Below are positions 42,293 to 64,000 of a DNA stretch of 64,000 nucleotides, piece by piece. Source of the DNA: Bacteroidota bacterium (GTDB lineage Bacteria; Bacteroidota; Bacteroidia; Bacteroidales; JACABE01). A program made the position numbers and the translations under genes. The notes beneath the pieces are model-generated. The model did not search any database, was not told the origin of the DNA, and saw nothing but the letters and a program-made list of their open reading frames with translations. Every line of letters starts with the position of its first letter. Position 1 is the first letter of the stretch. The stretch lies in contig JAPLDQ010000019.1 of the NCBI GenBank assembly GCA_026391675.1, forward strand, positions 151,780 through 215,779, given 5' to 3'.

Positions 42293-43042
42293 TTATTTTT
42301 TATTTTTTTTAGCCTTTTCTTTCAAATCATCTTTCCTTTTATCTTCAGCATCTTTTTTCTTTTCCTCTGCTTTTTTTGCTTTTCGTTTAAAATAACCTCT
42401 CAGTAAAAAGTTATCTTTAGCAGCATTCATGTTTTCATCCAGACCTTTAGAACTTTTTTTCAGGTTAATGATGGTTTGATTAATATTTTCGGCTATTGTA
42501 GTATCCTGAATGAGTCGCCCGAGCGTTCCTTTTCCACCGTTAACTTTAATTAATATTTCGGCCAACTGATCTGTAATAACAGCTGCATTTTCTGAAGTTA
42601 CCTGTAAATTAGCCATAATAGCATTTGTTTCCACAGGTTCTGTAGAAGTAAGTTTTTCTCCACCCCTGACTTTAAGGGCAGTTGCACTACCCTGAGTAAT
42701 AATCAACAGCCTGTCACCAATCAATCCTTCTGATCCTATTGCCACTTCGCAATCAGTTTTAATAAATTGCTGAACTTCTTTTTTTATCAGCATATCTATC
42801 ACAACTGTTGAGTCGTTTAAAATACTGATATTATCAACAGTACCAACATTTACACCTGAAAAACGAATATTATTTCCCACTTGCAAACCGCTTACATTAG
42901 CAAATGTAGTAGTTAGTTTAAATACAGGATTAAATAAGTTTTTTTGTTTTCCTATAATAAATATAGCAAGTACAAAAAGGGCCAATCCTCCAGCTACAAA
43001 TAAGCCTAATCGGATTTTGAATTTTTCAGTATGCGTTTCCAT
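42293..43042 (-). CDS. mlaD: MlaD-like Mce-domain protein
   Basis: 249 residues: one N-terminal helix (about 12-31), an Mce domain (FANVSGLQVGNNIRFSGVNVGTVDNI, 40-120), a helical region (about 140-215) and a strongly basic C-terminal tail of KKAEEKKKDAEDKRK type. Mce proteins form periplasmic hexamers that move phospholipids between membranes for the MlaFE transporter. The basic tail is unusual. Follows mlaF by 27 bp. Confidence 0.86.
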   Translation of the reverse strand: METHTEKFKIRLGLFVAGGLALFVLAIFIIGKQKNLFNPVFKLTTTFANVSGLQVGNNIRFSGVNVGTVDNISILNDSTVVIDMLIKKEVQQFIKTDCEVAIGSEGLIGDRLLIITQGSATALKVRGGEKLTSTEPVETNAIMANLQVTSENAAVITDQLAEILIKVNGGKGTLGRLIQDTTIAENINQTIINLKKSSKGLDENMNAAKDNFLLRGYFKRKAKKAEEKKKDAEDKRKDDLKEKAKKNKK

Positions 43043-43069
43043 TTTGTTTAAAATATTAATTCTATATAC

Positions 43070-43840
43070 TTAGTTAAAGAATGATTTTATTAATTTATCG
43101 TCAGATTTTTCGAAAAGATCAAGGCTACCTTCAAGGTAGACTTTTCCCTGGTGTAACATGATAACCCGGTTTGCTGTATGTTGGGCACATTTAATATCAT
43201 GTGTAATAATTATTGAAGATGTTTTATATTTTTTCTGGACTTCGTTTATAAGTGAACTTATTTCATCTGAAGTTACCGGATCAAGTCCTGTAGTTGGTTC
43301 ATCATACAATATAATAAGAGGATCCACAACAATGGTACGGGCTAAACTAATCCGTTTACGCATACCACCAGAAAGCTCTGAAGGCATTTTGTTTAATGCA
43401 TCGGCTAAGCCAACATTTTCAAGGACTTCCAGCACTTTAGCATCAATTTCTGATGTTGTAAGATTTTTTCTTAACCTGCGCAAAGGAAATTCCATATTTT
43501 GCTTTACCGTCATAGAATCATACAATGCACCACTTTGAAAAAGGAAACCTATTTTTTCTCTCATTAAATCCAATTCTTTCCTGTTTAAAGAAGCGAGATT
43601 TTTATCATATACATTAATAGTACCATCATCAAATTTTAATAAACCTACAATACATTTTATCAATACAGATTTCCCGCTGCCTGATTTACCAAGCACTACT
43701 AAATTTTCTCCTTCGAATAGTTTTAAATCAACGCCATTTAATACTGCATTGTTTGCGAATGATTTTTTAAGGTTTGTAATCTCAATGATCTGATTACGAC
43801 TCCTTTCTTTAACCGGAACTTCTTTTTGTATATTGTTCAT
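43070..43840 (-). CDS. mlaF: MlaF-like ABC transporter ATPase
   Basis: 256 residues: Walker A GKSGSGKS, Q-loop LFQSGALYDSMT, signature LSGGMRKR, Walker B LIILYDEPTTGLDP and H-loop ITHD. LFQSGALYDSMTVKQNM and LSGGMRKRISLAR are typical of MlaF. It powers lipid movement by MlaE. Its ATG overlaps the end of mlaE by 4 bp. Confidence 0.93.
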   Translation of the reverse strand: MNNIQKEVPVKERSRNQIIEITNLKKSFANNAVLNGVDLKLFEGENLVVLGKSGSGKSVLIKCIVGLLKFDDGTINVYDKNLASLNRKELDLMREKIGFLFQSGALYDSMTVKQNMEFPLRRLRKNLTTSEIDAKVLEVLENVGLADALNKMPSELSGGMRKRISLARTIVVDPLIILYDEPTTGLDPVTSDEISSLINEVQKKYKTSSIIITHDIKCAQHTANRVIMLHQGKVYLEGSLDLFEKSDDKLIKSFFN

Positions 43841-44688
43841 GATATCAGCATATCAGTTATTTGAACAGCTACCATATCTACAATTATTATCAGCAATGAT
43901 GCTAAAACTACGGCAGAATTTGCTGCTTTTCCTACGCTTTCTGTTCCCCGTCCGGCTGTATATCCTTTATAGCAACCAACCAGGCCTATTACAGCACCGA
44001 AAAAGAAAGATTTTATTATAGCAGGGTTAAAATCAATGAATTGAACATGACTAAAAGCCTGTGAAAAGAATAAGGTAAATGTAACATCACCTTTTAAATT
44101 TGCTCCCAAATAGCTACCGAGCATACCCAATGCATCAGCATATAAAACCAGCAGCGGTATCATAAGTGTTGCAGCCAATACTCTTGTTACAACTAAATAC
44201 CGCATTGGATTAGTAGAAGAAACTTCCATGGCTTCAATCTGTTCTGTCACTTTCATTGAACCCAGTTCGGCACCCATGCCTGAACCAATTTTACCTGCAC
44301 AAATAAGGGCTGTTATTACAGGGCCCATTTCTCTGATAAGTGATACGGCAACCATTCCCGGGAGCATGGTTACTGCTCCGAAACTTACAAGCACCGGACG
44401 TGACTGAATGGTAAGTACAAGCCCCATAATAGTTCCGGTAATTGAAATTAAAGGTAAAGTTTTATATCCTATCTGAAAACATTGACGAAAAAACTCTTTA
44501 AATTCAAAATCACGCGTAAATGTTTCTTTAAAAATACGGGCAATAAAAAGCAACACATTGGCAAAATCAGTAAAAAAACTATTAGCCAACAGTGTTTTCT
44601 CAAGGGTTTTTTCGCTGAGTTTTATGGCTTGTTTTCTAGCATTTCTGATACTTGGAATTGCTTTAATATCAGGTATTATTTTTTTCAT
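43837..44688 (-). CDS. mlaE: MlaE-like ABC transporter permease
   Basis: 283 residues with five or six membrane helices and the MlaE-family text: LPLISITGTIMGLVLTIQ, LIREMGPVITALICAGKIG, ELGSMKVTEQIEAMEV, and the C-terminal GCYKGYTAGRGTESVGKAAN. It starts the run mlaE-mlaF-mlaD-yihY. No regulon motif lies in its 93-bp upstream gap, so it may be transcribed from promoter G through the DUF6600 gene. Transport direction cannot be read from sequence. Confidence 0.93.
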   Translation of the reverse strand: MKKIIPDIKAIPSIRNARKQAIKLSEKTLEKTLLANSFFTDFANVLLFIARIFKETFTRDFEFKEFFRQCFQIGYKTLPLISITGTIMGLVLTIQSRPVLVSFGAVTMLPGMVAVSLIREMGPVITALICAGKIGSGMGAELGSMKVTEQIEAMEVSSTNPMRYLVVTRVLAATLMIPLLVLYADALGMLGSYLGANLKGDVTFTLFFSQAFSHVQFIDFNPAIIKSFFFGAVIGLVGCYKGYTAGRGTESVGKAANSAVVLASLLIIIVDMVAVQITDMLIS

Positions 44689-46218: not shown

Positions 46219-48837
46219 TTATTTAGCCGGAAGAATATCAATAATAACTGTACGGTTATAAAATCTTTCTTCAGGATATTTATTGGCAAATGGTGCTTGA
46301 GCCGGATCTTCACCAAATCCATTGGCTTCTATTTTAACATCTTTCCTATCGGCTTTTGCCAAGGCATTTTTAATAATATTTTTAACATCATTGGCTCTTG
46401 CAGCAGATAAATTTTGATTATAACCTTCCTCACCAATAATATCAGTATAACCATGAATAATAACGGTTCCACCCTGAGGTATTTTAGGACATACAATCTG
46501 AGTTAAATATTTATCATAAATTGCAATTGATTTTGAATCATTAAATTCATAGATAATGCTGAATCTCATCATTTCTTCTGCTTTAGCAGGAATCTTTATT
46601 TCAAGGTGAACCATCGCATCTTTTTTAATGATTTTATTATCTTTGGTAGTACCTATCATTGTTACTTTATAATCACCGGATTGACGATTACCTAAAATAG
46701 ATTTAGCAGGTAAACTTACAACTTCTTTATTGAATGGACCAAAATTAAGAATGCTGTCTTTATCATTTTTAATTTCCATTGACCATGAAGTGAATGCAGT
46801 ATCACTGCCTGAATTATTGAAAACAACATTACTTTCGGCAGGAGCAGATTTTGTACTTACAATTTGAACCGGTTTCAATGGTGCATCAGGACCACTCTGG
46901 AATTCCATCAAAATCTCTGGTGAAGTACTCCAGATTGATACTCTGCGGTCGCCCTGGCGTAGCAATTCAAGTTCCAGAACACCACCTTGATGTTCAGAAG
47001 GAATTCTTGGTTTTATTCTGCCTTCTGTAGCTATTCTGTTCCCTTTAATTCCAAACACATTAACAAGATAGGATTTTACTGATTCGGCCATAGCCAATCC
47101 GTCAGGAATACCCTGCATTGATGCTCCGGCAAGTCTGATTGAAGTTTCAGGATGTTTTTGCATACGATCACCCAATATGTTTAAAACATTATAGTAAACT
47201 GTCATTTGACGATCAGAACGACCTGACAATTTTTTCGGAGTAAATACTTCCAGCTGATCTTCTTTAAATTCTTTTACCTGTTCTTTTTTTATCAGAACAT
47301 AACGATCGGGAATTATTGTAGAACCCAAATCAAAGAATACATAGTTACGGACAGGAAAAGTTTCTCTTACCCTTAATTCAACCGGAATAAAATTAGGAGA
47401 ATTCACTGTAAATGTTACTTCGGGAGGATTACTGCTAATATTATCGATAATTGGAACTATTGGTTTGTGAAAATCAAAAGCATAAATATCATCATTACCT
47501 TTACCTCCATCCCTGTTGGACGAAAAATAGCCATTGGTTAAAGAATCATTTAATATAGCACCAAAATCATCAAACTGTGTATTCAGAGGATAACCGGCAT
47601 TATGAACATTTGTAACAACACCAGAAGCATCAATATTACACATAAAAATATCTAATCCGCCTAAACCATAATGTCCGTTTGAGCTGAATATAAACAGGCC
47701 ATCCTTGCCACCAATAAAAGGAAACAATTCATCACCTTCTGTATTAACTTTATCACCTAAATTTACAGCAATACTCCATTGACCATTCTCATTCTTTACT
47801 GATTTATAAATATCAGATCCGCCATAACCTCCTGACATATCGCTGGTAAAATACATGGTTTTTCCATCAGCAGTCAAACAGGGTTGCCCAACTGAAAACT
47901 CAACCTGATTATAGGCAAATGCAACTGGTTCGGCCCATTTACCGTCAGTATAATTACTAAACCATATCTGAAGTTCAACAATATTGTTATCAGTTTTTGA
48001 TTTATAATTATTTCTGGTAAATGCCATAAAATTACCATCTTTACTAAAACTTGCCGGACCATCATGTAGTTTGCCATTAATTTTTTTATCAAAATTCTCA
48101 GGTGATTTCATCTGTCCGTAAACAACTTCAGCAATTTCCATATTTCCAAATGGTTTTCTTGTCCAATTGTATATTTTTGGGAACATTTTAGAACTTCTGG
48201 TAGAAGCAAAAACTATACTGTTCTTATAATAGCAGGGGCCAAATTCTTTGGCATCTGAATTGAATTCCTGAGGTATAATTTTATATGTACCATCATCTTT
48301 TAATAGATTTGGCAACTCACTTTTATTGGCGACATAATCTTTTGCACGTAAATCTGTTGGTTTTAATTCAACAAACTTATCCATCCATGTATTAGCTTCC
48401 ATATATTTTGCATTTGCTCGTAAAGCCAATGAATAATTATAGTAATCATCAGCTAAAAGGACACCTTGAGAATTGAATAATTTAGCATAAGCTGCTTCTG
48501 CTTCAGTATTCTGTCCCATTTTATGATAACTTAATGCTAATCTTCTCTGACCATCCATGGTTAACAAATCAGCTTTAGTATAAGCTTCAATAGCATCATC
48601 ATATGCATATCTGAAAGCATATTTGTCTCCTTGAAGCTCTTTTCTTGATTTTTCCTGGGCTGTAGCAGCTTTATTGGCATTTTTATCTCCGGGAATTTCA
48701 TTACTTGACTTTTGCTGTGCAGGAACATTGCTAGAAGTGTATTTATCTCCCTGAAGTTTTTTTTCTGTTTTTTCCTGGGCTGTAACATTAAAGCATATAA
48801 ATAGTAATGCTGAAACGAGTATTGTTATTTTTTTCAT
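46219..48837 (-). CDS. OmpA-family protein with TPR and PD40-like repeats
   Basis: 872 residues: signal peptide, then a degenerate repeat (QEKTEKKLQGDKY, QQKSSNEIPGDKN, QEKSRKELQGDKY; residues 21-75). Next come TPR helices (about 70-150) and a PD40/WD40-like propeller with FTSDMSGGYGGSDIYKS and FSSNRDGGKGNDDIYAF. The C-terminal OmpA domain is VIIHGYTDIIGEEGYNQNLSAARAND and NRTVIIDI. Bacteroidota encode such proteins downstream of PorP/SprF. It would link a type IX-secreted adhesin complex to peptidoglycan. The N-terminal repeat is coded by near-identical DNA. Confidence 0.9.
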   Translation of the reverse strand: MKKITILVSALLFICFNVTAQEKTEKKLQGDKYTSSNVPAQQKSSNEIPGDKNANKAATAQEKSRKELQGDKYAFRYAYDDAIEAYTKADLLTMDGQRRLALSYHKMGQNTEAEAAYAKLFNSQGVLLADDYYNYSLALRANAKYMEANTWMDKFVELKPTDLRAKDYVANKSELPNLLKDDGTYKIIPQEFNSDAKEFGPCYYKNSIVFASTRSSKMFPKIYNWTRKPFGNMEIAEVVYGQMKSPENFDKKINGKLHDGPASFSKDGNFMAFTRNNYKSKTDNNIVELQIWFSNYTDGKWAEPVAFAYNQVEFSVGQPCLTADGKTMYFTSDMSGGYGGSDIYKSVKNENGQWSIAVNLGDKVNTEGDELFPFIGGKDGLFIFSSNGHYGLGGLDIFMCNIDASGVVTNVHNAGYPLNTQFDDFGAILNDSLTNGYFSSNRDGGKGNDDIYAFDFHKPIVPIIDNISSNPPEVTFTVNSPNFIPVELRVRETFPVRNYVFFDLGSTIIPDRYVLIKKEQVKEFKEDQLEVFTPKKLSGRSDRQMTVYYNVLNILGDRMQKHPETSIRLAGASMQGIPDGLAMAESVKSYLVNVFGIKGNRIATEGRIKPRIPSEHQGGVLELELLRQGDRRVSIWSTSPEILMEFQSGPDAPLKPVQIVSTKSAPAESNVVFNNSGSDTAFTSWSMEIKNDKDSILNFGPFNKEVVSLPAKSILGNRQSGDYKVTMIGTTKDNKIIKKDAMVHLEIKIPAKAEEMMRFSIIYEFNDSKSIAIYDKYLTQIVCPKIPQGGTVIIHGYTDIIGEEGYNQNLSAARANDVKNIIKNALAKADRKDVKIEANGFGEDPAQAPFANKYPEERFYNRTVIIDILPAK

Positions 48838-48859
48838 TTTTTTATTTATTTATGAAGGT

Positions 48860-49801
48860 TTAAAAATTTCTTGGTGAGTGAATTTGTTTTTTACTTGGAA
48901 AAATAAAGTCATATCTCAAAACCAACTCATGACTGCCATTATTATACCTGGAAGTTTCCAATCCGTAAGACCAGTCAAATGAATATCCAAGGTGTAATTG
49001 ATCAGTAATATCAAGACCTACAAGAATACCAACAGCATCGCCTGTACGAATCATTGCGCCTACCAATAATGTTTTCATAATGATAAACGATGCTGTTACA
49101 TCGGCTTGAACCGGTGCAGCATTTGTTATTTTTATCAATGTTGTTGGTTTAAAGGCTAAATTATCTGAGATTGGAAGTAAAGTACCCATAATAAAGAAGT
49201 AATGACGTTGTTCTTTTGCAATCAACTGATTACCATTACCCTCAGTAACTTTAGAATAATTATTTTCCAATAAATAAGGAATAGAAAGACCAGCATAAAA
49301 ACGTTCTCTGGAATAATAAGCTCCGAAACCAAAATTAGGGGTTACATTATTACTTATATCCGTTTTAAATACAGGGTCATTTTGTTGTTCCAATAAGAGT
49401 GTACTTAAGTCAGCCTGAAATACATTAATTCCGCCACTAATACCAAGAGCTAATCTTGATTTGGCTGTTAATTGCATAATATATGCAAAATCAATTAATG
49501 CAGACGTAGTATTGGTAGGTCCGATTTTATCATTAGATATTGACAACCCTAAACCAATATGTTCGTTTCGTAGTGGTGAATGTAAAGTTAACGTCTGAGT
49601 TGATGGTGCGCCTGCAAAACCCACCCATTGCGAACGATGAAGTGCCGTTACTGTTAAGGCATCCCTGCTCCCGGCATAAGCTGGATTTACTACTAATGTA
49701 TTATACATATAATGTGTATACATTGGTAATTGCTGTGCACGAATGTTAAACATCCATGTGGTCAGAACCAATACTAATACTATTTTTGTTAGTGTTTTCA
49801 T
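48860..49801 (-). CDS. PorP/SprF family type IX secretion-associated outer-membrane protein
   Basis: 313 residues: signal peptide (1-22), then LPMYTHYMYNTLVVNPAYAGSR, the signature opening of the PorP/SprF family, followed by an outer-membrane beta-barrel ending with the strand HELVLRYDFIF. SprF-type proteins attach CHU_C (type B) cargo to the cell surface. Here the cargo gene lies immediately upstream and the OmpA gene 23 bp downstream, forming the typical three-gene unit. Confidence 0.93.
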   Translation of the reverse strand: MKTLTKIVLVLVLTTWMFNIRAQQLPMYTHYMYNTLVVNPAYAGSRDALTVTALHRSQWVGFAGAPSTQTLTLHSPLRNEHIGLGLSISNDKIGPTNTTSALIDFAYIMQLTAKSRLALGISGGINVFQADLSTLLLEQQNDPVFKTDISNNVTPNFGFGAYYSRERFYAGLSIPYLLENNYSKVTEGNGNQLIAKEQRHYFFIMGTLLPISDNLAFKPTTLIKITNAAPVQADVTASFIIMKTLLVGAMIRTGDAVGILVGLDITDQLHLGYSFDWSYGLETSRYNNGSHELVLRYDFIFPSKKQIHSPRNF

Positions 49802-49927
49802 TTGTTATTTTTTTTTATTTCAATTAAAGAATGGAATCAGCTATGATGAGAATATTCATCGATTTTTGATTTGATTCAAACCATAGCTTAATTCATACAT
49901 TTTTTTATTTATTTTTATTATTTATTT

Positions 49928-52900
49928 TTATTTATTAAGATAAATTGTTCCTTTTATAACATCTGAGTTATTGCCCAAATTAAGTATGTAGAAATATGTT
50001 CCGATTGGCAGTCTGTCACCGTCTCCTATAATCAATCCCATTTTTGCTTTGCCATCCCAGGTATTCTGGTAAGGACTTGCCTCAAAGACTTTATTGCCCC
50101 ATCTGTTAAAGATTACAATTGAATTGGCAGGATATAGTTCGATTCCTCTGATTACAAATAAATCATTAATTCCATCACCATTTGGTGAGAAGCCCTGAGG
50201 TATAAAGAAATCAGTGGGAATAGTTTCAATGGTTGATGTATTATTGGTAAGTATTACATCAATTTCATTTCCCGTTATGGTTGCAGTATTTACATAACTA
50301 CCCGTTGAATTTACAATTGCAGTTATATATAAAGTACTGCTGGCTCCAACGCTTAGATTGCCTATTGTCCAAATGCCTGTTACAGGATTATAGACTCCTG
50401 ATGGACTGGATGTATAGGAAACAAAAGTATATCCACTCTGTAAATAATCGGTAACTATTACACCTGTTGCAGTATAAGGTCCATTATTGGTGGCAACTAT
50501 AGTAAATACGACTGTAGTTCCTTTCAAGGGGTTACTAATGTTTACAGTTTTAACAACTGATAAATCAGAAGGACAAATATTTACGACAACTGCAACAGTT
50601 GCTGGTAATGATATACATCCATTTGCTGTAACGGTTAAAATATAGTTTCCTGCATTAGCTAATATTGCTGAAATAATTACCGGATTCTGAACTATAGTTG
50701 AATAGCTGTTAGGACCTGTCCATGAATAAGTTCCACCTGTTACTGTTTGCGCAGTCAGGTTTAACGGACTATTCACGCATACAGGAGAATTACTGCCTGC
50801 TACAGCAATAGGTAAAGGTATTACAGTTACAACTCTGTTAGCAGTTGTGGTTCCACAAAGACCGGTTGAAGTAGCAGTTATTGTTGCTGTTCCGCTAAAA
50901 TTCACATCCCAGTTCATTACACCTGTTGATGAATTAATAACACCAGCAGTTGCAGGTAAAACAGAATAGACAATTGAAGTACTGCTGGTTGCAGATGCAA
51001 TATAGGTTTCATCTGGTGAATTCTGACAAATATATGTTGCACCAAAAATAAAAATTGTTGCTCCTATTGTTGAATTAACAGTTATCGTACCATTGATTGA
51101 AATTATTCCGCAGCCTCCGGTTAAATTAATTGTATAATTAAAAATTCCGGTTGCAGTTGGAGTTCCGCTTATAGTAATCAAATTGGCTAACCATGTTGCT
51201 GTTATTCCTGCGGGTAATCCGCTGAAAGTTGCTCCTGTTGCTCCTGTTGTTGCATAAGTTATATTTGTAATTGCAGTATTTACACATGGGAACTGATTAT
51301 CAGTTCCGGCTACTGATGTCAATACTATCGTATTATTTGGATTTACCGTGATTGTTCCTGTTGCAGAAATTGTTCCGCAACCTCCTGTTAAGTTAACAAT
51401 ATAGTTAAATATTCCGGATGCAGTTGGTGTTCCGCTTATGGTTACCACATTAGCTAACCAGATTGCTGTAATTCCGGCAGGTAAACCGCTGAAAGTTGCT
51501 CCTGTAGCTCCTGTTGTAGTATAATTTATATTTGCAAAAGCTGTATTGATACAAAGGTTTTGATTATTAGAACCAAATCCAGAAGTTAATACAATTGTAT
51601 TATTTGGAGTTACAGTAATTGAACCGGTTGTAGAAATTGTTCCGCAGCCTCCTGTTAAGTTAACAGTGTAGTTAAAAATACCCGCTGCTGTTGGAGTTCC
51701 ACTTATTGTTACCACATTAGCTAACCAGTTTGCTGTTACTCCGGCAGGTAAACCGCTGAAAGTTGCTCCTGTTGCACCTGTAGTTGCATATATAATATTT
51801 GTTATCGCTGTATTGATACAATGGGTCTGATTATCAGTACCTATAGCTGAAGTCAATACAATTGAATTAATTGGAATTACAGTTATTGAACCTGTTGTAG
51901 AAATTGTTCCGCAACCTCCTGTTAAATTAACAGTATAGTTAAATACTCCTGTTGCAGTTGGTGTTCCGCTAATCGTAATAACATTAGCTAACCAGCTTGC
52001 GGTTATTCCGGCGGGTAAAAGGCTGAAATTAGCGCCTGTTGCTCCCGTTGTGGTATAAGAAATATTTACGATTGGTGAATTTACACATACAGTTTGATTA
52101 TTTGTACCAATTGCAGAAGTTAATATAATCGTATTATTGGGAATAACTGTTATATAATTCAGTACTGTTTTTGTATTTGATGCACCGTCAGTTATGGTTA
52201 AACTTACAGTACTAGAACCTGAACCTGAATAAATTACAGTATGAGGACCAATTCCGGTTATTGTTGCCGGTGTTGCACCTGTTCCAAAATTCCAGCTGTA
52301 GGTTGTTGTAGGTGTTGTTCCTGTGGAAGTATTGGTAAATACTACACTTGACCCACTACATACAGATGTTATATTTGCAGTAAAGTTTGCAATTAAACCG
52401 CATCCTAACAGTGTAATAGTTTTGGAAACCTGACTTCCAACGCATGCATTACTGGTTGTTTCAATAACACTTATATTTCCATTGGTTGTTCCGAATGTAA
52501 CAGTAATACTATTTGTACCACCACCAGCTGTAATAATAGCTCCTGCAGGGACAGTCCATGCATAAGTAGATCCGGGAGTATTGGTTACACTATATATCTG
52601 TGCAATTGCATTACAATTTGGTGTTGCATTTCCTGATATTACTGAAGTTACAGGCAATGGTGTTACGACTAAAGACACAATTGTTGAAGTCAATGTTGTA
52701 CCATTTGCTGATGCAGCAGAAGGATTGTTAATGATATTTGTACCTGATAAAACTACTGCACCATTTCTGGCGAGTAATCTGCCATCAATAGATGAACCTG
52801 TATTCATCGTTATGGATGTTAAGGCCAGTATATTTCCTTTAAAAGAAGTTCCATTACCAATAGTTGCAGAACTACCAATCTGCCAGGTTACGTTTTTAGC

Positions 52901-55900
52901 CTGTGCACCTCCGGTAAGAATAACACTACCACCAGCTCCACCAACTGTAGTAAAATCAGAGGCAACCTGAAAAATCCAAACAGCATTTGCATTACCTTGT
53001 CCATCAAGGGTTAAATTACCTGATTGTATCAGAAGTGTAGAAGTTGATTTATAAATACCAGGGGCAAGAGTTATACCACCCTGATCGCCTGCAACGGTAA
53101 CTGGAGCAGGTGCAGTTGCACCTTCAGCAAAAAGATATGCATTGGTTAAATCCTGTTTTGCTTGTATTAACATTGCAGCTACTCCCGGAGGAGCAACATC
53201 ATCGGATGCATAAATGGCTCCATTTACAATTGAGGCTGGAGGGAATCCTGTTATTGATGAACGAACACCAGGACTTATGCCAACATTCATATTACTTATT
53301 ACACTAAAACCAGTACTGCTGATTCCAACACCTGCAAGAATACCAAATTCACCGGCTGTATTAAGGTTAGTAACATTAGAATTTACGGATGAACATAATC
53401 CTGTAACTACAACATTGTAGTTATAAGCAGTGTCAGCTAATGTAGCAGGATTAATTCTGAGTGTATCAGAAGTAGCTCCTGAAATATTTCCACCATTAAT
53501 TAAATTTACACTTCCTTTTCTCCATTGATAGGTATTACCTGATCCTGAAGCAACTACTAAAAAATAAACAGAATTGCCAACGCAAACTGTTTTATTAACA
53601 GGTTGTGTTATAATTGTCACTACAGTATCAACTAATAATGAAGCATTTAAAGAAGTATCATTTGGTAAACAGCCTCCACTTACAATAACATTATAATTGA
53701 CAGCAGCATTAGCTAAATAAGCAGGATTAAAAGTAAGCGTATTTGAATTAACACCTGAAATATTTGCACTGGTTATAAGGTTTACATTTCCTTTTCTCCA
53801 TTGATATGTCAGGTTAGTACCGGTTGCACTTACTGTTAAATAGGCTGAATTTCCTGAACAAACGCTTTTATTAACGGGTTCAGTAGTTATAATTGGAGGA
53901 GATGCTCTTAATAAAGAAACATTTATTGAAGTATCTTTTGGCAAACATGCTCCTGAGATGATAACATTATAGTTTGACGCAGTATCAGAGATAAGCATAG
54001 CATTAATTCTGACTGTATCAGAAATTGCACCGGATATATTAGCTCCATTAATTAAATTTACAGTTCCTTTTCTCCATTGATAAGTTAAGTTTGAACCGGT
54101 TGCTACTACTGAAAAATAGACTGCACTTCCTAAACAGGCTGTTTTAGTTACAGGCTGTGTCGTTATTAAAATTGGGATGTTTACTATTATAGATGCATTT
54201 ATTGAGGTATCATTTGGCAAACAACTACCATAAACAATTACATTATATTGAGTTGAAGTATCTGAAATACTGATAGAATTAAATTTCAATGTATCAGAAG
54301 TTGCACCGGATATATTTACTCCATTTATTAAATTTAAAGTTCCTTTTCTCCATTGATAGGTTAAATTAGAACCGCTTGCAATAATGAATAATTTTACTGC
54401 ATTTCCTACACATGCATTTTGATTGCTTGGTTCGGTTGTTATAATTGGAGGTGTATTAACTACCAAAGAAACATTTACTGAAGTATCATTTGGTAATAAT
54501 AAACCACTTACAATAACATTATAGTTAGAAGAAGTATCTGATAAACTGGCTGGAAAAATTCTTAAAGTATCAGAAGTAGCACCGGATATATTTCCTCCGT
54601 TAATTAAATCTACATTTCCTTTTCTCCATTGATAGGTAAGTGAAGATCCTGATGCTGTTACTGTATATTTTACTGAATCACCTGAACAAGCAGTTTTATT
54701 TACCGGCTCTGTAATAATTAATGGACCTGCAGTAGCACTACAACCAGGAGGCATAATGGCTGTTATTGCCGCAGTATTTAATGCACCTGTTGTTGTAAGC
54801 GCTCTTCCATCTATTTTAGCACCTGTATTTAAATTCATTGCACCATTGTTACAAACAATAGTTCCGACAAATTCCGAATAATCATTAATAGTTACAGCAC
54901 CACTTATCATCCAATACACATTTTTTGATTGTGTTCCGTTTATCATTTTAACTTTTGAATAGGTGCTTGTATTTATCGCACCATATATTTTTATAACAAA
55001 TACAGCATTGGCATCATTCATAGCATCCAGAAAAAGGGTATCTGTAAATGTTACCGCACCATTCATTAAATAAGTATGAGGTGTAAGAACCAATTGATTT
55101 CCAAATTGAGCTGGATAAAGCAATTCAATATCATAAGGTAAGGTATTGAGATAACTGTATGCATTAAGCAAATCAGCGGCTGCGGCTGCGGTTGATCCAT
55201 CAGGAATCGGATGAATTAAACCGGTTACAAATAATGGATTAAAACCTGTTGTTAATCCTGAATTTGTTCCTACATCACCTGTAATATTTGTTATGCCAAC
55301 ATTGGTAACAGGTCCGTTTGAGGAAAATATTGCATAACATGCAGCTGAAACCAAATTTGGAGCCAATGGTCCTGTAAGAGATGGACTTCCACAACCAACA
55401 GGAGTATATGCCAGCACTCCGCTAACATTTACAGCTCCATTGGTTGAAAGGACTCTTCCTTCGAGTACACAACCTGAACTCATATTAATAGCGGCGTTGT
55501 TTGCAATTACTGTTCCTTTCATTGAAGTGGATGGAGCCATGCTTACCAAACCTTCTATTTTCCAGAATACATTACATGCTTTAGCTCCATTAAGTAATAT
55601 CACTTTTGAGCTTGCAGCTGTTGAAAGAGGACCCTGAATCTGAAGAATAAATACAGCATTGGAATTGCCCAGGGCATTTAAATAAAGAGTTCCGTTCATG
55701 GTTGTTGCACCCGTTACTGAATAAACCCCTGCAATAAGAGTATCACCGTTTCCTAATAAAGGAGCCGGAAAATAGGTTGGAACAGTGCTGTTTAGCTGAT
55801 TATAAGCTATGAGCAAATCTGTTGCACATTGTGCACTTTTTGGATCACTGGTAAAGGTCATTACACCATTTACATTTCCAAAACCTGTCACACCTCCGTT

Positions 55901-56074
55901 ATTTGTTCCTACATTTCCTGTAAGATGCGAAATGCCTGTATTTCCTACTGCTCCAATTGTAGTAAACATTACAAAATTGGCAGAAGTTCCTAAAGGAGGA
56001 GCCTGTGCGAAACTTAAAGTTGGTATTAATAGCAGCAAAGTGAGCTTTAATACATTTAGTATTCGTGTTTTCAT
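49928..56074 (-). CDS. Giant DUF3494 (ice-binding-like) adhesin with type B T9SS sorting domain
   Basis: 2048 residues. Signal peptide (1-24). Three DUF3494 ice-binding-like domains, two near the N-terminus (about 27-225, 238-445) and one in the middle (about 905-1135), each with GVY/GIYKS-type strands and NVFWKIEG/NVYWMISG-type signatures. Between them lie five Ig-like repeats of about 90 residues (TEPVNK.AC..., TYQWRKG). A PKD-like segment, four nearly identical 88-residue repeats (GATGATFSGLPAG), DUF11-like (TGVIVTDYLQSG) and a CHU_C domain (GFSPNGDGINDLFVI, FNRWGNKVFE) follow. It is exported by the type IX system and surface-bound through PorP. Ice or surface adhesion is inferred from the domain. 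Confidence 0.93.
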   Translation of the reverse strand: MKTRILNVLKLTLLLLIPTLSFAQAPPLGTSANFVMFTTIGAVGNTGISHLTGNVGTNNGGVTGFGNVNGVMTFTSDPKSAQCATDLLIAYNQLNSTVPTYFPAPLLGNGDTLIAGVYSVTGATTMNGTLYLNALGNSNAVFILQIQGPLSTAASSKVILLNGAKACNVFWKIEGLVSMAPSTSMKGTVIANNAAINMSSGCVLEGRVLSTNGAVNVSGVLAYTPVGCGSPSLTGPLAPNLVSAACYAIFSSNGPVTNVGITNITGDVGTNSGLTTGFNPLFVTGLIHPIPDGSTAAAAADLLNAYSYLNTLPYDIELLYPAQFGNQLVLTPHTYLMNGAVTFTDTLFLDAMNDANAVFVIKIYGAINTSTYSKVKMINGTQSKNVYWMISGAVTINDYSEFVGTIVCNNGAMNLNTGAKIDGRALTTTGALNTAAITAIMPPGCSATAGPLIITEPVNKTACSGDSVKYTVTASGSSLTYQWRKGNVDLINGGNISGATSDTLRIFPASLSDTSSNYNVIVSGLLLPNDTSVNVSLVVNTPPIITTEPSNQNACVGNAVKLFIIASGSNLTYQWRKGTLNLINGVNISGATSDTLKFNSISISDTSTQYNVIVYGSCLPNDTSINASIIVNIPILITTQPVTKTACLGSAVYFSVVATGSNLTYQWRKGTVNLINGANISGAISDTVRINAMLISDTASNYNVIISGACLPKDTSINVSLLRASPPIITTEPVNKSVCSGNSAYLTVSATGTNLTYQWRKGNVNLITSANISGVNSNTLTFNPAYLANAAVNYNVIVSGGCLPNDTSLNASLLVDTVVTIITQPVNKTVCVGNSVYFLVVASGSGNTYQWRKGSVNLINGGNISGATSDTLRINPATLADTAYNYNVVVTGLCSSVNSNVTNLNTAGEFGILAGVGISSTGFSVISNMNVGISPGVRSSITGFPPASIVNGAIYASDDVAPPGVAAMLIQAKQDLTNAYLFAEGATAPAPVTVAGDQGGITLAPGIYKSTSTLLIQSGNLTLDGQGNANAVWIFQVASDFTTVGGAGGSVILTGGAQAKNVTWQIGSSATIGNGTSFKGNILALTSITMNTGSSIDGRLLARNGAVVLSGTNIINNPSAASANGTTLTSTIVSLVVTPLPVTSVISGNATPNCNAIAQIYSVTNTPGSTYAWTVPAGAIITAGGGTNSITVTFGTTNGNISVIETTSNACVGSQVSKTITLLGCGLIANFTANITSVCSGSSVVFTNTSTGTTPTTTYSWNFGTGATPATITGIGPHTVIYSGSGSSTVSLTITDGASNTKTVLNYITVIPNNTIILTSAIGTNNQTVCVNSPIVNISYTTTGATGANFSLLPAGITASWLANVITISGTPTATGVFNYTVNLTGGCGTISTTGSITVIPINSIVLTSAIGTDNQTHCINTAITNIIYATTGATGATFSGLPAGVTANWLANVVTISGTPTAAGIFNYTVNLTGGCGTISTTGSITVTPNNTIVLTSGFGSNNQNLCINTAFANINYTTTGATGATFSGLPAGITAIWLANVVTISGTPTASGIFNYIVNLTGGCGTISATGTITVNPNNTIVLTSVAGTDNQFPCVNTAITNITYATTGATGATFSGLPAGITATWLANLITISGTPTATGIFNYTINLTGGCGIISINGTITVNSTIGATIFIFGATYICQNSPDETYIASATSSTSIVYSVLPATAGVINSSTGVMNWDVNFSGTATITATSTGLCGTTTANRVVTVIPLPIAVAGSNSPVCVNSPLNLTAQTVTGGTYSWTGPNSYSTIVQNPVIISAILANAGNYILTVTANGCISLPATVAVVVNICPSDLSVVKTVNISNPLKGTTVVFTIVATNNGPYTATGVIVTDYLQSGYTFVSYTSSPSGVYNPVTGIWTIGNLSVGASSTLYITAIVNSTGSYVNTATITGNEIDVILTNNTSTIETIPTDFFIPQGFSPNGDGINDLFVIRGIELYPANSIVIFNRWGNKVFEASPYQNTWDGKAKMGLIIGDGDRLPIGTYFYILNLGNNSDVIKGTIYLNK
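51080..52145 (-). repeat. Four 264-bp tandem repeats in the adhesin gene
   Basis: Each encodes an 88-residue Ig-like unit. The four units are highly similar, so this stretch is recombination-prone and easily misassembled. Confidence 0.85.
53400..54730 (-). repeat. Five ~270-bp Ig-like repeats in the adhesin gene
   Basis: The units share TYQWRKG and the SDT..YNVIVSG pattern. They are more diverged than the 264-bp set. Confidence 0.85.
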
Positions 56075-56111
56075 TTTTATAATTTATTTATGTGAATGAT
56101 TTTTCACTGCA

Positions 56112-56177
56112 CAAAGGTAGATTTGAAGACATTGGTTTACATTACACAATTAAGGGAAAGAATTACATCATTCACAC
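56112..56177 (-). promoter_or_regulatory. Regulon promoter copy H (adhesin-PorP-OmpA operon)
   Basis: Minus strand: GTGTGAATGATGTAA, 11 bp, AATTGTGTAA, 22 bp, TACCTTTG. Leader 37 nt. Confidence 0.87.
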
Positions 56178-56200
56178 TAAATGTTAAAAACACATAAAAT

Positions 56201-56232
56201 AAAAGGCCCGCTATTTAATCATAGCAGGCCTT
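56201..56232 (-). terminator. Terminator of the second DUF3494 gene
   Basis: AAGGCCCGCTAT and ATAGCAGGCCTT form a 12-bp stem with one mismatch; the T run lies on the minus strand. Confidence 0.82.
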
Positions 56233-56251
56233 CCATTCTTTTAATAAGTTT

Positions 56252-57880
56252 TTATTGTGAAATCAGTTTACCTGATTGTATCGTTTTATTGTTAACATCC
56301 ACTTTATAGAAATATAGTCCTGAAGGAAGATTTGATGTTTCAATTGTTGTTGACTGTTTTGTAAGAAGTTTGTTAATCATAACTTCACCTAAGATATTAT
56401 ATATCCATAATTCAGTATTTTTTGTATAAGTAACATCATTTAGCCTGATGGTTGTATAAGTTTTAAATGGATTAGGATAAAATTCAACAGCTTTATTAGA
56501 TTTTACAGCAGCAGGATTTGCTATACCTACACTTCCGCAACTCGGTGGAATCATAGGAGCTACTGCATTTATTGCTGTTGTAGTAACAGCTCCTGTGGTT
56601 GTCAGTGATCTGCCATCCAGTGTTACACCTGTATTAAATGCACCCAATGCGCCATTATTACAAATAATCGTTCCCCTGAAAGTTGAATAATTATTGATAC
56701 TAACAGCACCTTCTATTTTCCAGTATACATTTTTGGATTGAGCTCCATTTATTAATACGACATTAGAATAAGTAGAAGTGGATAGCGCCCCGTTTAACTG
56801 TATTACAAATACTGCATTGGCATTTCCAAGTGCATTCAGAAAAACTGTATCAGTAAAAGTTGCAGCGCCATTCATACGGTAAGTATGAGGTGTTAGAACC
56901 AGATTATTTCCAAACTGGACTGGATACAACAATTCTATATCATAAGGCAAGGTATTTAAATAGTTGTATGCAACAAGCAAATCAGCGGCACATTGTGCAG
57001 TAGAAACATCGGGCAAAGGATGTATACTTCCGTTTACCAGTAATGGATTAAAGCCGGTTGCAGAACCATTGTTACTTCCTATATCACCTGTAATATTAGT
57101 AATTCCTGAATTAGAAACTGCACCATTGCCAGAAAATATGGCATAACAGGCTCCATAACCTAATGTAGGTGCTGATGGCCCGTTAAGTACCGGACTGCCG
57201 CAACCTATCGGAGTATATGCTAGTACACCATCAACTGTAACAGCTCCTGCAGTTGACAACGCTCTGCCTTCGAGTGTATCACCTGTATTCATTTCAATAG
57301 CTCCATTATTGGCAATTATTGTACCTTTCATGGATGTTCCTGTAGCCATGCTTACTAATCCTTCAACTTTCCAAAACACATTACATGCCTGAGCTCCATT
57401 AATTAATTTAATTTTTGAATTCGCGTTTGTCGAAAAAGATCCTTGAATTTTAATTATAAATACAGCACTTGTATTTCCCTGAGCATTCAACGTAAGATCC
57501 AGGTTAAGTGTAGCTGCGCTTGAAATGGAATAAATACCATCAATCAGTATCTGGCCATTCCCTAGTAAAGGAGCAGGAAAGAATGCAGGAATTGAACTGT
57601 TCAGTAAATTATATGTAATTAACAAATCAGCAGCAGCCTGAGCACTTGCGGCATCTCCATCGTGCATTACACCATTTACATTCCCAAAAGCTGTACTTGA
57701 ACCATTATTGGTTCCAATATTACCTGTAAGATGAGAAATTCCGGAATTACTTACAGCACCATTCGTAGAAAACAGTACAAAATTTGCCGTTGTTCCCAAA
57801 GGAGGTGCCTGAGCAAAATTTAAAGTTGGCAGTATTAGTAATGCAGATACAATAAATGTATTAATAAATCGGGTTTTCAT
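56252..57880 (-). CDS. DUF3494 (ice-binding-like) protein with type A T9SS sorting domain
   Basis: From ATG 57880 it has 542 residues: signal peptide, two DUF3494 domains (about 25-220 and 230-440) and a C-terminal sorting domain (VEFYPNPFKTYTTIRL ... LPSGLYFYKV). The N-terminal two-domain arrangement closely matches the first two domains of the giant adhesin, so the genes are related by duplication. Promoter copy I places the start at 57880, giving a 39-nt leader like the other units; the upstream ATG at 57922 would overlap the -7 box. Released or cell-attached ice-binding/adhesion function is inferred from the domain. Confidence 0.92.
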   Translation of the reverse strand: MKTRFINTFIVSALLILPTLNFAQAPPLGTTANFVLFSTNGAVSNSGISHLTGNIGTNNGSSTAFGNVNGVMHDGDAASAQAAADLLITYNLLNSSIPAFFPAPLLGNGQILIDGIYSISSAATLNLDLTLNAQGNTSAVFIIKIQGSFSTNANSKIKLINGAQACNVFWKVEGLVSMATGTSMKGTIIANNGAIEMNTGDTLEGRALSTAGAVTVDGVLAYTPIGCGSPVLNGPSAPTLGYGACYAIFSGNGAVSNSGITNITGDIGSNNGSATGFNPLLVNGSIHPLPDVSTAQCAADLLVAYNYLNTLPYDIELLYPVQFGNNLVLTPHTYRMNGAATFTDTVFLNALGNANAVFVIQLNGALSTSTYSNVVLINGAQSKNVYWKIEGAVSINNYSTFRGTIICNNGALGAFNTGVTLDGRSLTTTGAVTTTAINAVAPMIPPSCGSVGIANPAAVKSNKAVEFYPNPFKTYTTIRLNDVTYTKNTELWIYNILGEVMINKLLTKQSTTIETSNLPSGLYFYKVDVNNKTIQSGKLISQ

Positions 57881-57919
57881 TTTATTGAGTTTTAAATTTG
57901 TGAAAAAATCTTCACTTAG

Positions 57920-57985
57920 CAAAGGTATTGATGCTAAAATTGGAAAGTATTACATAATAAAATTAAAGTCTTGTATCATTCACAC
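57920..57985 (-). promoter_or_regulatory. Regulon promoter copy I (second DUF3494 gene)
   Basis: Minus strand: GTGTGAATGATACAA, 11 bp, TATTATGTAA, 22 bp, TACCTTTG. Leader 39 nt to ATG 57880. Confidence 0.85.
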
Positions 57986-58351: not shown

Positions 58352-59002
58352 TTAATTGATTGAAAAAGATAAGTAAAAACTTGTTACAGCATTGTGTGCT
58401 GAAGGAATTGTATAGAATGTATCCAAAACAGAACTTTCTTTTGCAACTTTAATAAATCCATAACTATATCTTATTCCCATACCTAATTTACCAATATCTA
58501 TACTTAAACCTGCAGCAAATCCGGCATCAAAATGACTATTATTGCTTTTATTTATATTTTTCTCAAAATCAAAGAGATTGCCACCTGATACATTGCTCAC
58601 TTTATTGCTAATCAGAAAAGCTGCATAGGGACCAGCCTGGATATTGCAATTTTCAAATAAATTATATACTATTAATAAAGGAACTTCAAGGTAATTATAA
58701 TTAAACCTGACACTTCCATTTAAAAGCAAATCATTATAGGTTATCTCTCCTCCTTTGGGCGAATAATTAATTTCAGGCTGAATTGCAAAAGAATGGGATA
58801 AAGTAAACTTAGCAAACAATCCAAAATGAAATGTGCTTATCATTTTAGTACTGTATGCATTATTTGTATAAAGCAGAATCTTATTAATGCCTCCTTTAAT
58901 ACCAAATCTCGTTTTACTAATTTCGTCCTGTGCTTTTATTTGGGAGTTGGTAATAAACAGAACCATAATTATTAAAAATGCTGCTTTTAATATTTTTTTC
59001 AT
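58352..59002 (-). CDS. Outer-membrane beta-barrel protein (PorT-like/OMP_b-brl)
   Basis: 216 residues: signal peptide (1-24), then an eight-stranded beta-barrel pattern with RFGIKGGINKILLY, IQPEINYSPKGGEI, NYLEVPLLIVYNL, GPYAAFLIS, AGLSIDIGKLGMGIRYSYG and the C-terminal FYLSFSIN. This is the common Bacteroidota porin-family/OMP_b-brl fold. Function unknown. It follows the CsbD gene by 90 bp and precedes the small membrane protein gene. Confidence 0.87.
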   Translation of the reverse strand: MKKILKAAFLIIMVLFITNSQIKAQDEISKTRFGIKGGINKILLYTNNAYSTKMISTFHFGLFAKFTLSHSFAIQPEINYSPKGGEITYNDLLLNGSVRFNYNYLEVPLLIVYNLFENCNIQAGPYAAFLISNKVSNVSGGNLFDFEKNINKSNNSHFDAGFAAGLSIDIGKLGMGIRYSYGFIKVAKESSVLDTFYTIPSAHNAVTSFYLSFSIN

Positions 59003-62373: not shown

Positions 62374-62808
62374 TTACATTCTTTCCATATACCAGTTTAG
62401 TTCTTTTTCCAATTTTTTAAATTTGAATATACTGGTAATAATCTTTTGCAACCGGATAAAGGCTGTTTCACTTTTCACAACATAATCGTAAGCTTTGTGA
62501 TGCATACAATCCACAGCCACTTCAATTTTATCCTGTCCTGATAACATCACAACAGGCATATCAGGATACTTTGCTTTAATTTTGTCAAGGGTTTCTATTC
62601 CATTCATAGCATCTTTCTCAATACCATCAAGCATATAATCCAGAATAATCACATCAGGATTCTTTGACAGGTTTAACATACAAAGTTCACCGGTAGCATA
62701 AGTTTCTATCGAAAAGTCGGCATGGGAAAGGAATTCAATTTCTAATGATTTTAAATAGACAACATCATCATCAACAAGGAAAAGTTTTATTTTATTTAGA
62801 TTGTTCAT
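62374..62808 (-). CDS. Receiver-only response regulator
   Basis: 144 residues: a single REC domain with acidic pair VDDD (residues 13-16), the phosphoacceptor Asp in VIILDYMLDG, Ser in MLSGQD and Lys in VVKSET. After the domain there is only a short helix (FKKLEKELNWYMERM), no DNA-binding or enzymatic output. It would relay phosphate or act by protein contact, most simply with the hybrid kinase encoded immediately upstream (17-bp overlap). Confidence 0.91.
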   Translation of the reverse strand: MNNLNKIKLFLVDDDVVYLKSLEIEFLSHADFSIETYATGELCMLNLSKNPDVIILDYMLDGIEKDAMNGIETLDKIKAKYPDMPVVMLSGQDKIEVAVDCMHHKAYDYVVKSETAFIRLQKIITSIFKFKKLEKELNWYMERM

Positions 62809-64000
62809 CTTTTGTTTTTTTAATAGTAATTAAATCTTCTTCTAATTCTATACATGCCTGATTACAAACAGTTTCAATCTGAAGCACCATATCAGATATA
62901 CCTTCTGTCTGTTGTTGGTTTTTTGCAAAATCCTGTATCCTTTTTGCCATTTCTTCATAATCGGTATTAATGCCCATAATTACAAATGAAGGAATCATTT
63001 TATGAACTGCTGCATACAAAGATGCCCAGTCCTTTTCTTTCCAGCTCTGTTTCATCGCACTGATTAATGGAGGAGTTTGTTCAAGGTATAACGAAATCAT
63101 TTCCATCATCAGTACCGGGTTGGACTTAGTACGCTGAATTAAATAATTTAAATCAGTATATTTCAATGTTTTAGCTTTTATTATTTCTTCAACTACATTA
63201 TATCCATAGATTAGTTTTGATTTTTTAACCGCACCAATAATTTTAGTATATAATAGTTTTTCATCAACAGGTTTTGCTATGTAATCATTCATACCCACAG
63301 CAGTACATTTTGCCAGATCAACCGTGGTTACATCTGCTGTTAATGCAATAATTGGGATATTAGAATTCATTTCTTCCCTGATATAGCATGTGGCTTCAAA
63401 TCCGTTCATTTCAGGCATCTGTAAGTCCATGAGCACAATATCGTATGATTTGGTTTTTAGTTTTTCAATGGCTATTAATCCGTTGTCAGCTATATCACAT
63501 TCAAATTCAAAATCGTCCAGCAATGTTTTCATCAACAGTTGATTCAATTTAATATCTTCAACAACCAATACTTTAATGCCTTTAATTTCATTATCCAATT
63601 CTATTAACTCATCTTCAGATGCAACTTCAGCTTTTGTCTTTAAAAATTCCAATATAAAACTAAAGGTGGAACCTTCGCCAACTTTACTTATTACATGAAT
63701 ACTTCCATCCTGTGCTTCTACCAATTGTTTAACAATGGCAAGTCCCAATCCGGTCCCTCCGTATAATCTTGAAGTAGTGCTGGATGCCTGTTGGAAATTT
63801 TCAAAAATCTTTTCAATCTTAGTTTCTGATATTCCGATTCCTGTATCCTTTATAGCAAATTCGATACTTACTTTTTTTTCATCTTCAGCTAATAAACGTA
63901 CACTTACAACAATTTTTCCGGTATTTGTGAACTTTACTGAATTACTTACCAGATTCAAAATAATCTGGTGCAAACGTACAGGGTCACCAACTAAAACTTC
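62792..64000 (-). CDS. Hybrid histidine kinase, 3' part (HATPase-REC-HPt)
   Basis: The frame stays open to the right edge: the sequence before LHQIILNLVSN reads EVLVGDPVR, so the start lies outside. Visible: the ATPase domain (N box NLVSNSVKF, G1 DTGIGI, F box and G2 GGTGLGLAIV), a REC domain (LVVEDIKLNQLLM, DIVLMDLQMPEMNG, ALTAD, KPVDE) and a C-terminal HPt domain with His in AAVHKMIPS. Input domains and HisKA are beyond the window. It likely controls the receiver-only regulator downstream. Confidence 0.93.
   Translation of the reverse strand, partial: EVLVGDPVRLHQIILNLVSNSVKFTNTGKIVVSVRLLAEDEKKVSIEFAIKDTGIGISETKIEKIFENFQQASSTTSRLYGGTGLGLAIVKQLVEAQDGSIHVISKVGEGSTFSFILEFLKTKAEVASEDELIELDNEIKGIKVLVVEDIKLNQLLMKTLLDDFEFECDIADNGLIAIEKLKTKSYDIVLMDLQMPEMNGFEATCYIREEMNSNIPIIALTADVTTVDLAKCTAVGMNDYIAKPVDEKLLYTKIIGAVKKSKLIYGYNVVEEIIKAKTLKYTDLNYLIQRTKSNPVLMMEMISLYLEQTPPLISAMKQSWKEKDWASLYAAVHKMIPSFVIMGINTDYEEMAKRIQDFAKNQQQTEGISDMVLQIETVCNQACIELEEDLITIKKTKDEQSK

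Follow-up and report, generated by a model that had tools for sequence, protein, structure and literature searches.

Two display forms of one ice-binding module are probably encoded in a 64,000-nucleotide stretch of a Bacteroidota genome (contig JAPLDQ010000019.1), referred to here as the window. Four neighbouring genes at positions 46219-57922, all on the minus strand, encode a short and a giant protein with DUF3494 domains, a PorP/SprF-family protein and a PorE-like OmpA protein. The short protein ends in a type A sorting domain of the type IX secretion system (T9SS) and would be a released antifreeze protein of the IBPv type. The giant ends in a type B sorting domain and would be held by its PorP/SprF carrier as a static ice adhesin. 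L-numbers and G-numbers are working labels for loci and genomes, respectively, and the window's genome is G000.

Two DUF3494 proteins with different T9SS sorting domains

The first-pass annotation of the window had called DUF3494 domains in both proteins, and a domain search confirmed the call. PF11999 (cut-off 28.7 bits) matched the giant in three stretches (403 bits, E 3e-121) and the short paralogue in two (256.5 bits, E 2e-76), and these five are all the DUF3494 matches in the whole 4.04-Mb genome. An N-terminal DUF3494 pair is present in both proteins, as had been described, but the third DUF3494 domain of the giant (residues 903-1117) had been overlooked. The assignment of the two proteins to different sorting classes was borne out by profiles that all scored above their cut-offs. 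The C terminus of the giant matched PF13585, CHU_C (94.2 bits, E 5e-27, cut-off 27) and TIGR04131 (51.7 bits, cut-off 35), and that of the short paralogue matched PF18962 (48.3 bits, E 1e-12, cut-off 27) and TIGR04183 (46.1 bits, cut-off 23). The gene positions given earlier also held. The 556-amino acid (aa) frame of the short paralogue is counted from a TTG at 57922, and the ATG at 57880, which the annotation had taken as the start, is the likelier one.

The host genome encodes the T9SS components SprA (E 0), PorU (1338 bits) and PorV (E 2e-154), together with five PorP/SprF genes, one of them weak. After another of these PorP genes there is what we take, by eye, to be a gldKLMN-like gene order; the search for gliding genes was confined to this reading. 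The same genome has 56 CHU_C matches (42 over the cut-off, two of those only with their neighbours) against the five PorP/SprF genes, and therefore either many type B substrates share carriers or many of the matches are cross-hits.

The short paralogue aligned with IBPv of Flavobacteriaceae strain 3519-10 (PDB 5uyt) over nearly its entire mature length (E 6.8e-162). We class it as IBPv-type on its two co-linear domains, both disulfide pairs, the small-residue row in domain B and the type A tail; the NCBIfam ice-binding protein equivalog, NF045625, was not reached (166.4 and 94.7 bits, cut-off 400). Both systems have a DUF3494 tandem with a weaker domain A carrying Leu174 and a stronger domain B. 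The window differs from IBPv by a further protein, a type B giant that joins an equivalent tandem to a stalk and a third DUF3494 domain and has a carrier of its own. Mutation of the small-residue row impaired IBPv domain B, and Leu174 weakens domain A, as described in the available text of PMC5673226. The corresponding row in domain 2 reads AAAAA in the short paralogue and PAAAA in the giant, compared with AGAAA in IBPv domain B, and in domain 1 the two proteins retain a bulky equivalent of Leu174 (AAALS, AAALP). Both tandems have all four disulfide cysteines, and antifreeze and ice-binding proteins are the solved structures closest to the DUF3494 domains. In IBPv, the last 88 residues had no electron density, and what they contribute to activity was called unexplained (PMC5673226, available text). 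These residues match TIGR04183 (46.4 bits, cut-off 23), which offers an explanation of this C terminus as a T9SS type A sorting domain.

Exchange of the A and B sorting domains in F. johnsoniae toggled proteins between release and anchoring. SprB carrying the type A domain of AmyB was released, AmyB and RemA carrying the type B domain of SprB were anchored and moved, and the type A domain of RemA gave both anchoring and release (PMC12618676, available text). Judged by these swaps and by the co-linearity with IBPv, two modes of display would be the best-supported reading of the giant and the short paralogue. Alternatively, both proteins could stay on the cell, with PorU joining the type A paralogue to surface lipopolysaccharide, so that covalent display would stand beside PorP-held display. 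PorU is encoded in the genome, in P. gingivalis the attachment of type A proteins is covalent according to the available text of PMC9143113, and the RemA domain gave anchoring as well as release. On the other side, the co-linear homologue IBPv is described as secreted by its own bacterium (PMC5673226, available text), and the AmyB domain gave release. We regard retention of both proteins as possible but rather unlikely. By analogy, it is most likely that the type A paralogue is released and that the giant is held statically as an ice adhesin.

A PorP carrier and a PorE-like protein adjoin the giant

The annotation had assigned PorP/SprF and OmpA partners to the giant, and both were recovered. 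The giant gene is followed after 126 bases by the PorP/SprF gene and, after a further 22 bases, by the PorE-like OmpA gene. The window PorP adjoins a type B substrate and matched TIGR03519 with 263.7 bits (cut-off 90.55), as expected of a PorP/SprF carrier. The OmpA gene has PF00691 at its C terminus (43.6 bits, cut-off 27.2), the position of the OmpA domain in PorE. The PorE profile NF052230 scored 220.6 bits over residues 75-456 only, under its cut-off of 600, so that the likeness to PorE falls short of full length. After the propeller, the C-terminal half of the protein in the window and in L032 (16801-19275) is unlike that of 12 other island genes, and the OmpA domain stands at its end.

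PorE, PorP and PG1035 form a complex, and PorE binds peptidoglycan (PMC9143113, available text). Operons of F. johnsoniae that combine a substrate with SprF-like and PorE-like proteins have been proposed to be static anchors (PMC12618676, available text). The window resembles Fjoh_3952-3951-3950 of F. johnsoniae and PG1035-PorP-PorE of P. gingivalis in its three kinds of partner and in the static peptidoglycan anchoring proposed for them. It differs from both in its ice-binding substrate, its ice-associated PorP clade and the different C-terminal half of its PorE-like protein.

A gliding adhesin that moves on a track, as SprB does, would also have a type B domain and an SprF-family carrier, and in F. 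johnsoniae foci of SprB, Fjoh_4750 and a small part of those of Fjoh_1123-CTD moved (PMC12618676, available text). The giant, however, adjoins a PorE-like gene, which accompanies static anchoring in that species according to the same text. Sustained movement requires a bond between a C-terminal Cys-x-Cys of SprF and GldK (PMC12635249, available text). The window PorP has no cysteine and therefore cannot form a disulfide of the SprF-GldK type, and we consider a gliding role highly improbable. Among the island PorPs compared, 12 of 13 are cysteine-free and one has Cys17 only. None of the 18 PorPs in the comparison, which covered the host's three others and no gliding SprF, carries Cys-x-Cys within its final 40 residues. 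Absence of the motif therefore does not set the clade apart.

The set recurs in other genomes with an ice-associated PorP clade

A contig scan with the tandem alignment gave 308 relatives, of which the best 80 were kept (79 loci). With loci of further genomes and the window included, and with L022 dropped as lying on the same contig as L032, 99 tandems were classified with custom profiles: 74 were type A, 15 type B, 7 cut and 3 other. Besides the window, 14 loci hold a type B tandem (L032, which is split by an N run, L038, L044, L049, L059, L063, L069, L077, L087, L088, L095, L098, L100 and L107). A PorP gene and then a PorE-like gene lie downstream in all 13 type B loci that have downstream sequence, L049 being cut. 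No PorP was found within 400 bases downstream of any of the 74 type A tandems, 65 of which have 1300 bases or more of downstream sequence. A type A tandem is also present in 9 of the 14 type B loci (that of L087 is cut at its start), and none occurs in the available stretch of L032, L038, L044, L077 and L095. The title of L057 gives groundwater as the source of this carrier, and we presume that the GWF2 and RIFCSPLOWO2 genomes come from aquifer samples.

Seven of the 14 type B loci also encode a single-DUF3494 protein of about 250 aa. A lipobox was read by eye in 15 of the 16 single-DUF3494 proteins listed over all loci (L041-L102), and such proteins are a possible third form of display. A whole-genome DUF3494 search did not find this form in the window's genome. 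Two loci (L032 5943-9506 and L027 585-4069) share a set of three genes, encoding a DUF3494-PKD protein ending in TSSIYHQ or TSAIYHQ, a protein of 462-463 aa ending in TSAIWHN or TSPIWHN, and a small CHU_C protein. A similar C-terminal motif occurs in L024 (TSLIFHF). In L032 this set adjoins the giant at the place where the window has the type A paralogue.

The island PorPs are 66-79% identical to that of the window, compared with 20-31% for the three other PorPs of the host genome that were compared. In L055, where the neighbouring type B protein has no DUF3494 match, the PorP is 43% identical. We surveyed 295 genomes of the class and set the clade threshold at 65% identity or more to the window PorP; 11 PorPs besides the window's reached it. 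Seven of these directly follow an intact tandem-to-CHU_C frame (G278, G158, G311, G335, G064, G241 and G226). The G073 gene is split: ahead of the PorP, L128 (G073 C54, 3396-6649) holds a tandem-PKD frame and a short PKD-CHU_C frame, either a broken gene or an assembly fault. In G231, G297 and G327 the contig end cuts the type B gene. All 11 clade PorPs have a PorE-like gene downstream. The next PorP below the threshold (G251, 62%) and a second PorP of G226 (56%) serve proteins of 3602 and 2513 aa, respectively, neither of which has DUF3494. Of the 75 other genomes that had a PorP match, 40 were searched for DUF3494; among these, the best match was 54% or less in 28, one of which has DUF3494, located elsewhere. 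DUF3494 is present in 47 of the 295 genomes, namely in 10 of the 11 clade genomes (not in G327) against 36 of 283 others (Fisher p 3e-8, uncorrected for shared ancestry). The survey is not fully independent of the locus scan, because G278 and G226 apparently coincide with L077 and L098.

A third DUF3494 domain is predicted within an Ig repeat of the stalk

The third domain of the giant lies at the same spot of the fifth immunoglobulin-like (Ig) repeat in the window, in L032 and L044 (both type B) and in L033 (type A). Its identity to the window's copy in the other three is 86-89%, compared with 54-78% (L044, L033) and 68-92% (L032) for the flanking tandem and Ig repeats. Outside these four, the next closest domains are in a 565-aa protein of L104 (75%), in one of L026 (60%) and in the lipobox proteins (46-52%), and identity to the tandem domains listed is 34-40%. 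The domain is cysteine-free and its ice-binding row 1 reads -ASSD.

We modelled domain 3 together with Ig repeat 5 using AlphaFold2. A 4-row alignment gave a mean predicted local distance difference test (pLDDT) score of 40.4 and a 70-row alignment one of 86.8; in the 9 Ig rows of the latter that were inspected, out of 36, only the last two residues aligned to the tail. The predicted domain 3 is a beta-solenoid with a long helix (149-169), the fold of DUF3494, and its model matches 6eio over model residues 77-305 (VIA-align Z 32.7, 213 residues aligned, root-mean-square deviation 2.1). Ig structures span the model from residues 1-3 to 322-325 with 83-92 residues aligned (Robo1 Ig5: Z 13.8, 90 of 92), these ranges giving the first and last aligned residue only. 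Because the Ig matches span both sides of the solenoid, the Ig domain would close after it, and domain 3 is predicted to be plugged into the F-G loop of Ig repeat 5, which resembles complementarity-determining region 3 (CDR3). In a sequence test, taking out domain 3 brought no gain in score for Ig repeat 5 of the window (120.3 bits without the tail, 119.8 with it and 119.9 with a shuffled tail). The shuffled tail exceeded the real one in L032 (132.1 vs 128.9), and there was no gain in L044 and one of 3 bits in L033. Matched by itself, the tail hit the end of the repeat in L033 (E 3e-4), L044 (0.006) and L032 (0.036) but hardly in the window (0.25).

Known proteins share parts of this architecture. 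Grappling hook protein A of Aureispira (PDB 9flp) has Ig-like repeats that resemble the stalk of the giant (18 stretches, the best at 1750-1839); this match lies outside the ice-binding domains. A structural match was also obtained with SfIBP_1 of Shewanella frigidimarina (PDB 6bg8), which combines DUF3494 with beta-sandwich domains and is proposed in the title of a paper to be an ice adhesin. It differs from the giant, whose third DUF3494 domain is predicted inside an Ig domain. SfIBP_1 is not known to have a T9SS carrier or PorE. The ice-binding fold and the secretion system of MpIBP, from Marinomonas primoryensis, differ from the DUF3494 fold and T9SS type B export considered here. MpIBP is likewise a long protein in which the ice-binding part is one among several regions (PMC5014055, available text). 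A central Arctic Ocean survey described proteins with up to three DUF3494 domains, in some cases separated by other domains, and possible tethers in which DUF3494 is combined with Ig-like repeats (PMC9957290, available text); the terms 'T9SS' and 'type IX' are absent from that text.

Conceivably, the target of the DUF3494 domains is not ice but a glycan or another cell, which would make this a general adhesin locus. The irregular row of domain 3, the numerous Ig and PKD repeats and at least one carrier from groundwater (L057) agree with this. The closest solved relatives, however, are antifreeze and ice-binding proteins, and most of the row tested by mutation in IBPv domain B is found again in domain 2 of the giant and the short paralogue, so we find a non-ice target decidedly unlikely and favour ice binding.

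A terminator separates the two genes

The annotation had placed both genes under one regulator, a claim we do not uphold because a strong terminator separates them and no regulator was recognised between or beside them; a single regulator or operon for both was rejected as a candidate on the same grounds. The type A gene ends in a 19-pair hairpin and T tract (-27.7 kcal/mol, z -6.8). All seven gaps examined between a type A gene and a type B gene next downstream, that of the window included, contain a hairpin with a T tract, and each hairpin exceeds all 20 shuffles of its gap in stability. No regulator was recognised among the frames scanned from 56 to 61.8 kb, which hold beta-barrel, CsbD-like and PIG-L genes and a 50-aa frame without a family, the smaller frames being unscanned. 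A scan for sigma-70 consensus promoters found 61, compared with 66.9 expected from shuffles. The closest signalling genes noticed are at 62374-63973, some 4.5 kb upstream of the type A paralogue: a response regulator and a second frame that combines a histidine-kinase ATPase with receiver domains. No evidence connects them with the two genes.

The two tandems are old paralogues

The N-terminal pairs had been called duplicates. They are paralogous, at 70% identity domain for domain (domains 1 and 2 of the giant share 39%), but old: the nearest relatives of the giant's tandem are in L032 and L033 and that of the short tandem is in L068, so each has its closest relative in another genome. A recent local duplication was rejected on this evidence. 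On a tree of 90 tandems (75 type A, IBPv included, and 15 type B) the sorting class changes at least three times, compared with a shuffled mean of 14. A 39-row tree, made from all 15 type B and 24 hand-picked type A tandems with the two longest branches excluded, groups the giant with L032 (type B) and L033 (type A) at support 100/98, apart from 12 of the 15 type B rows. This suggests a switch of sorting class on the same module, or an independent origin of the window's type B form. A single origin of type B was not rejected by the approximately unbiased (AU) test (p 0.119).

The A and B forms might then be redundant, interchangeable carriers of one module with no division of labour between them. 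The three changes of class fit this, as does the type A L033, which has the three-domain architecture of the giant. It is countered by the 9 of 14 type B loci that also have a type A tandem, by the terminator-like hairpin between A and B in the seven adjacent pairs examined and by the AU result, and we judge redundancy unlikely. Two forms with distinct modes of display remain our preferred reading.

Features of the locus and neighbouring genes

The features are collected in Table 1. Downstream of the island lie genes for MlaD, an ABC ATPase and an MlaE permease (42293-44688). Upstream of the type A paralogue is a beta-barrel gene (58352-59002), and L028 has a gene with weak similarity to it (42 bits) ahead of its type A tandem.

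Table 1. Positions, strand and supporting evidence of the features of the ice-binding locus in the window
Feature	Position	Strand	Evidence
PorE-like/OmpA gene, 872 aa	46219..48837	-	PorE-like first half; PF00691
PorP/SprF-family gene, 313 aa, ice-associated clade, cysteine-free	48860..49801	-	TIGR03519, 263.7 bits
Giant type B gene, putative ice-binding adhesin, 2048 aa	49928..56074	-	open reading frame; Pfam and NCBIfam profiles
Giant: type B sorting domain CHU_C, residues 1957-2048	49931..50206	-	PF13585, TIGR04131
Giant: DUF11 domain, residues 1837-1950	50225..50566	-	PF01345, E 1.4e-32
Giant: PKD-like and Ig-like stalk, residues 1141-1832	50579..52654	-	PF19408, PF18911, PF00801; repeats read in sequence
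Giant: predicted G strand completing Ig repeat 5, residues 1129-1138	52661..52690	-	AlphaFold2 model, pLDDT about 65
Giant: DUF3494 domain 3, residues 903-1117, predicted in F-G loop of Ig repeat 5	52724..53368	-	profile; AlphaFold2 pLDDT 86.8; VIA-align
Giant: five Ig-like repeats, residues 451-898	53381..54724	-	profiles, alignments
Giant: DUF3494 domain 2, tip tandem, residues 238-445	54740..55363	-	profile; 70% identical to short domain 2
Giant: DUF3494 domain 1, tip tandem, residues 25-228	55391..56002	-	profile; 70% identical to short domain 1
Intrinsic terminator between type A gene and giant gene	56196..56239	-	19-pair stem and T tract; -27.7 kcal/mol, z -6.8
Type A paralogue, putative ice-binding, 556 aa: signal peptide (by eye), two DUF3494, type A tail	56252..57922	-	profiles; co-linear with 5uyt
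Type A paralogue: sorting domain (Por_Secre_tail)	56258..56479	-	PF18962, TIGR04183

Discussion

Our reading is that one T9SS would export one ice-binding module in two forms. The short form would leave through SprA, be shuttled by PorV and have its type A domain cleaved by PorU; most likely released, it would shape the ice around the cell. The giant would use the same translocon and then be taken on by a PorP/SprF carrier of its own, remaining bound to it through the type B domain. The PorE-like protein would link this carrier to peptidoglycan, and through this tie the stalk is proposed to be held still. The giant would thus present an ice-binding tandem at its tip and a third ice-binding domain part-way down, in the loop of the fifth Ig repeat. 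Computation supports the domains, the gene order, the T9SS components of the genome, the terminator, the recurrence of the set, the ice-associated PorP clade, the lack of gliding-track cysteines and the predicted insertion of the third domain. That the domains bind ice, that the short form is released, that the long form is anchored statically and that cells are held to ice are inferences.

Several points weigh against this reading. The PorE-like protein scores below the curated cut-off of PorE and has a divergent C-terminal half. Type A proteins may also be retained on the surface, as the type A domain of RemA suggests by analogy. The ice-binding row of domain 2 of the giant opens with Pro, a bulky Leu is kept in domain 1 of both proteins, and row 1 of domain 3 is irregular. 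The sequence test gave no clear sign of the Ig insertion in the window. Support for the PorP clade comes from 11 genomes with families in common, and two or more of these genomes were part of the locus scan too; the absence of Cys-x-Cys is not special to the clade. The carriers are not all obviously icy.

An IBPv-like tandem, the type B substrate-PorP-PorE trio as an anchoring set, and proteins with several DUF3494 domains or with DUF3494 and Ig domains are already known. DUF3494 or ice binding joined to T9SS sorting was not found in the literature searched, which included few subscription papers. Nor did searches aimed at ice binding with T9SS or at ice adhesins find the pairing of A and B display, an ice-associated PorP clade or DUF3494 inside an Ig domain, and a literature search on lipoprotein export signals gave no relevant paper. 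More broadly, it is quite possible, though short of probable, that a recurring ice-binding island of Bacteroidota shows DUF3494 as lipoproteins, as type A tandems that are released or linked to lipopolysaccharide, and as static type B adhesins with a dedicated PorP/SprF clade; in the window's lineage, a solenoid in the CDR3-like Ig loop would add a second ice grip part-way down the stalk.

If the reading is true, a single module gives, through one export system, both an antifreeze protein in soluble form and an ice adhesin that is tethered, and the carrier clade would be usable for finding such adhesins in genomes. The window pair would then be a natural counterpart of the F. johnsoniae sorting-domain swaps, and it bears on how Bacteroidota could hold on to ice.

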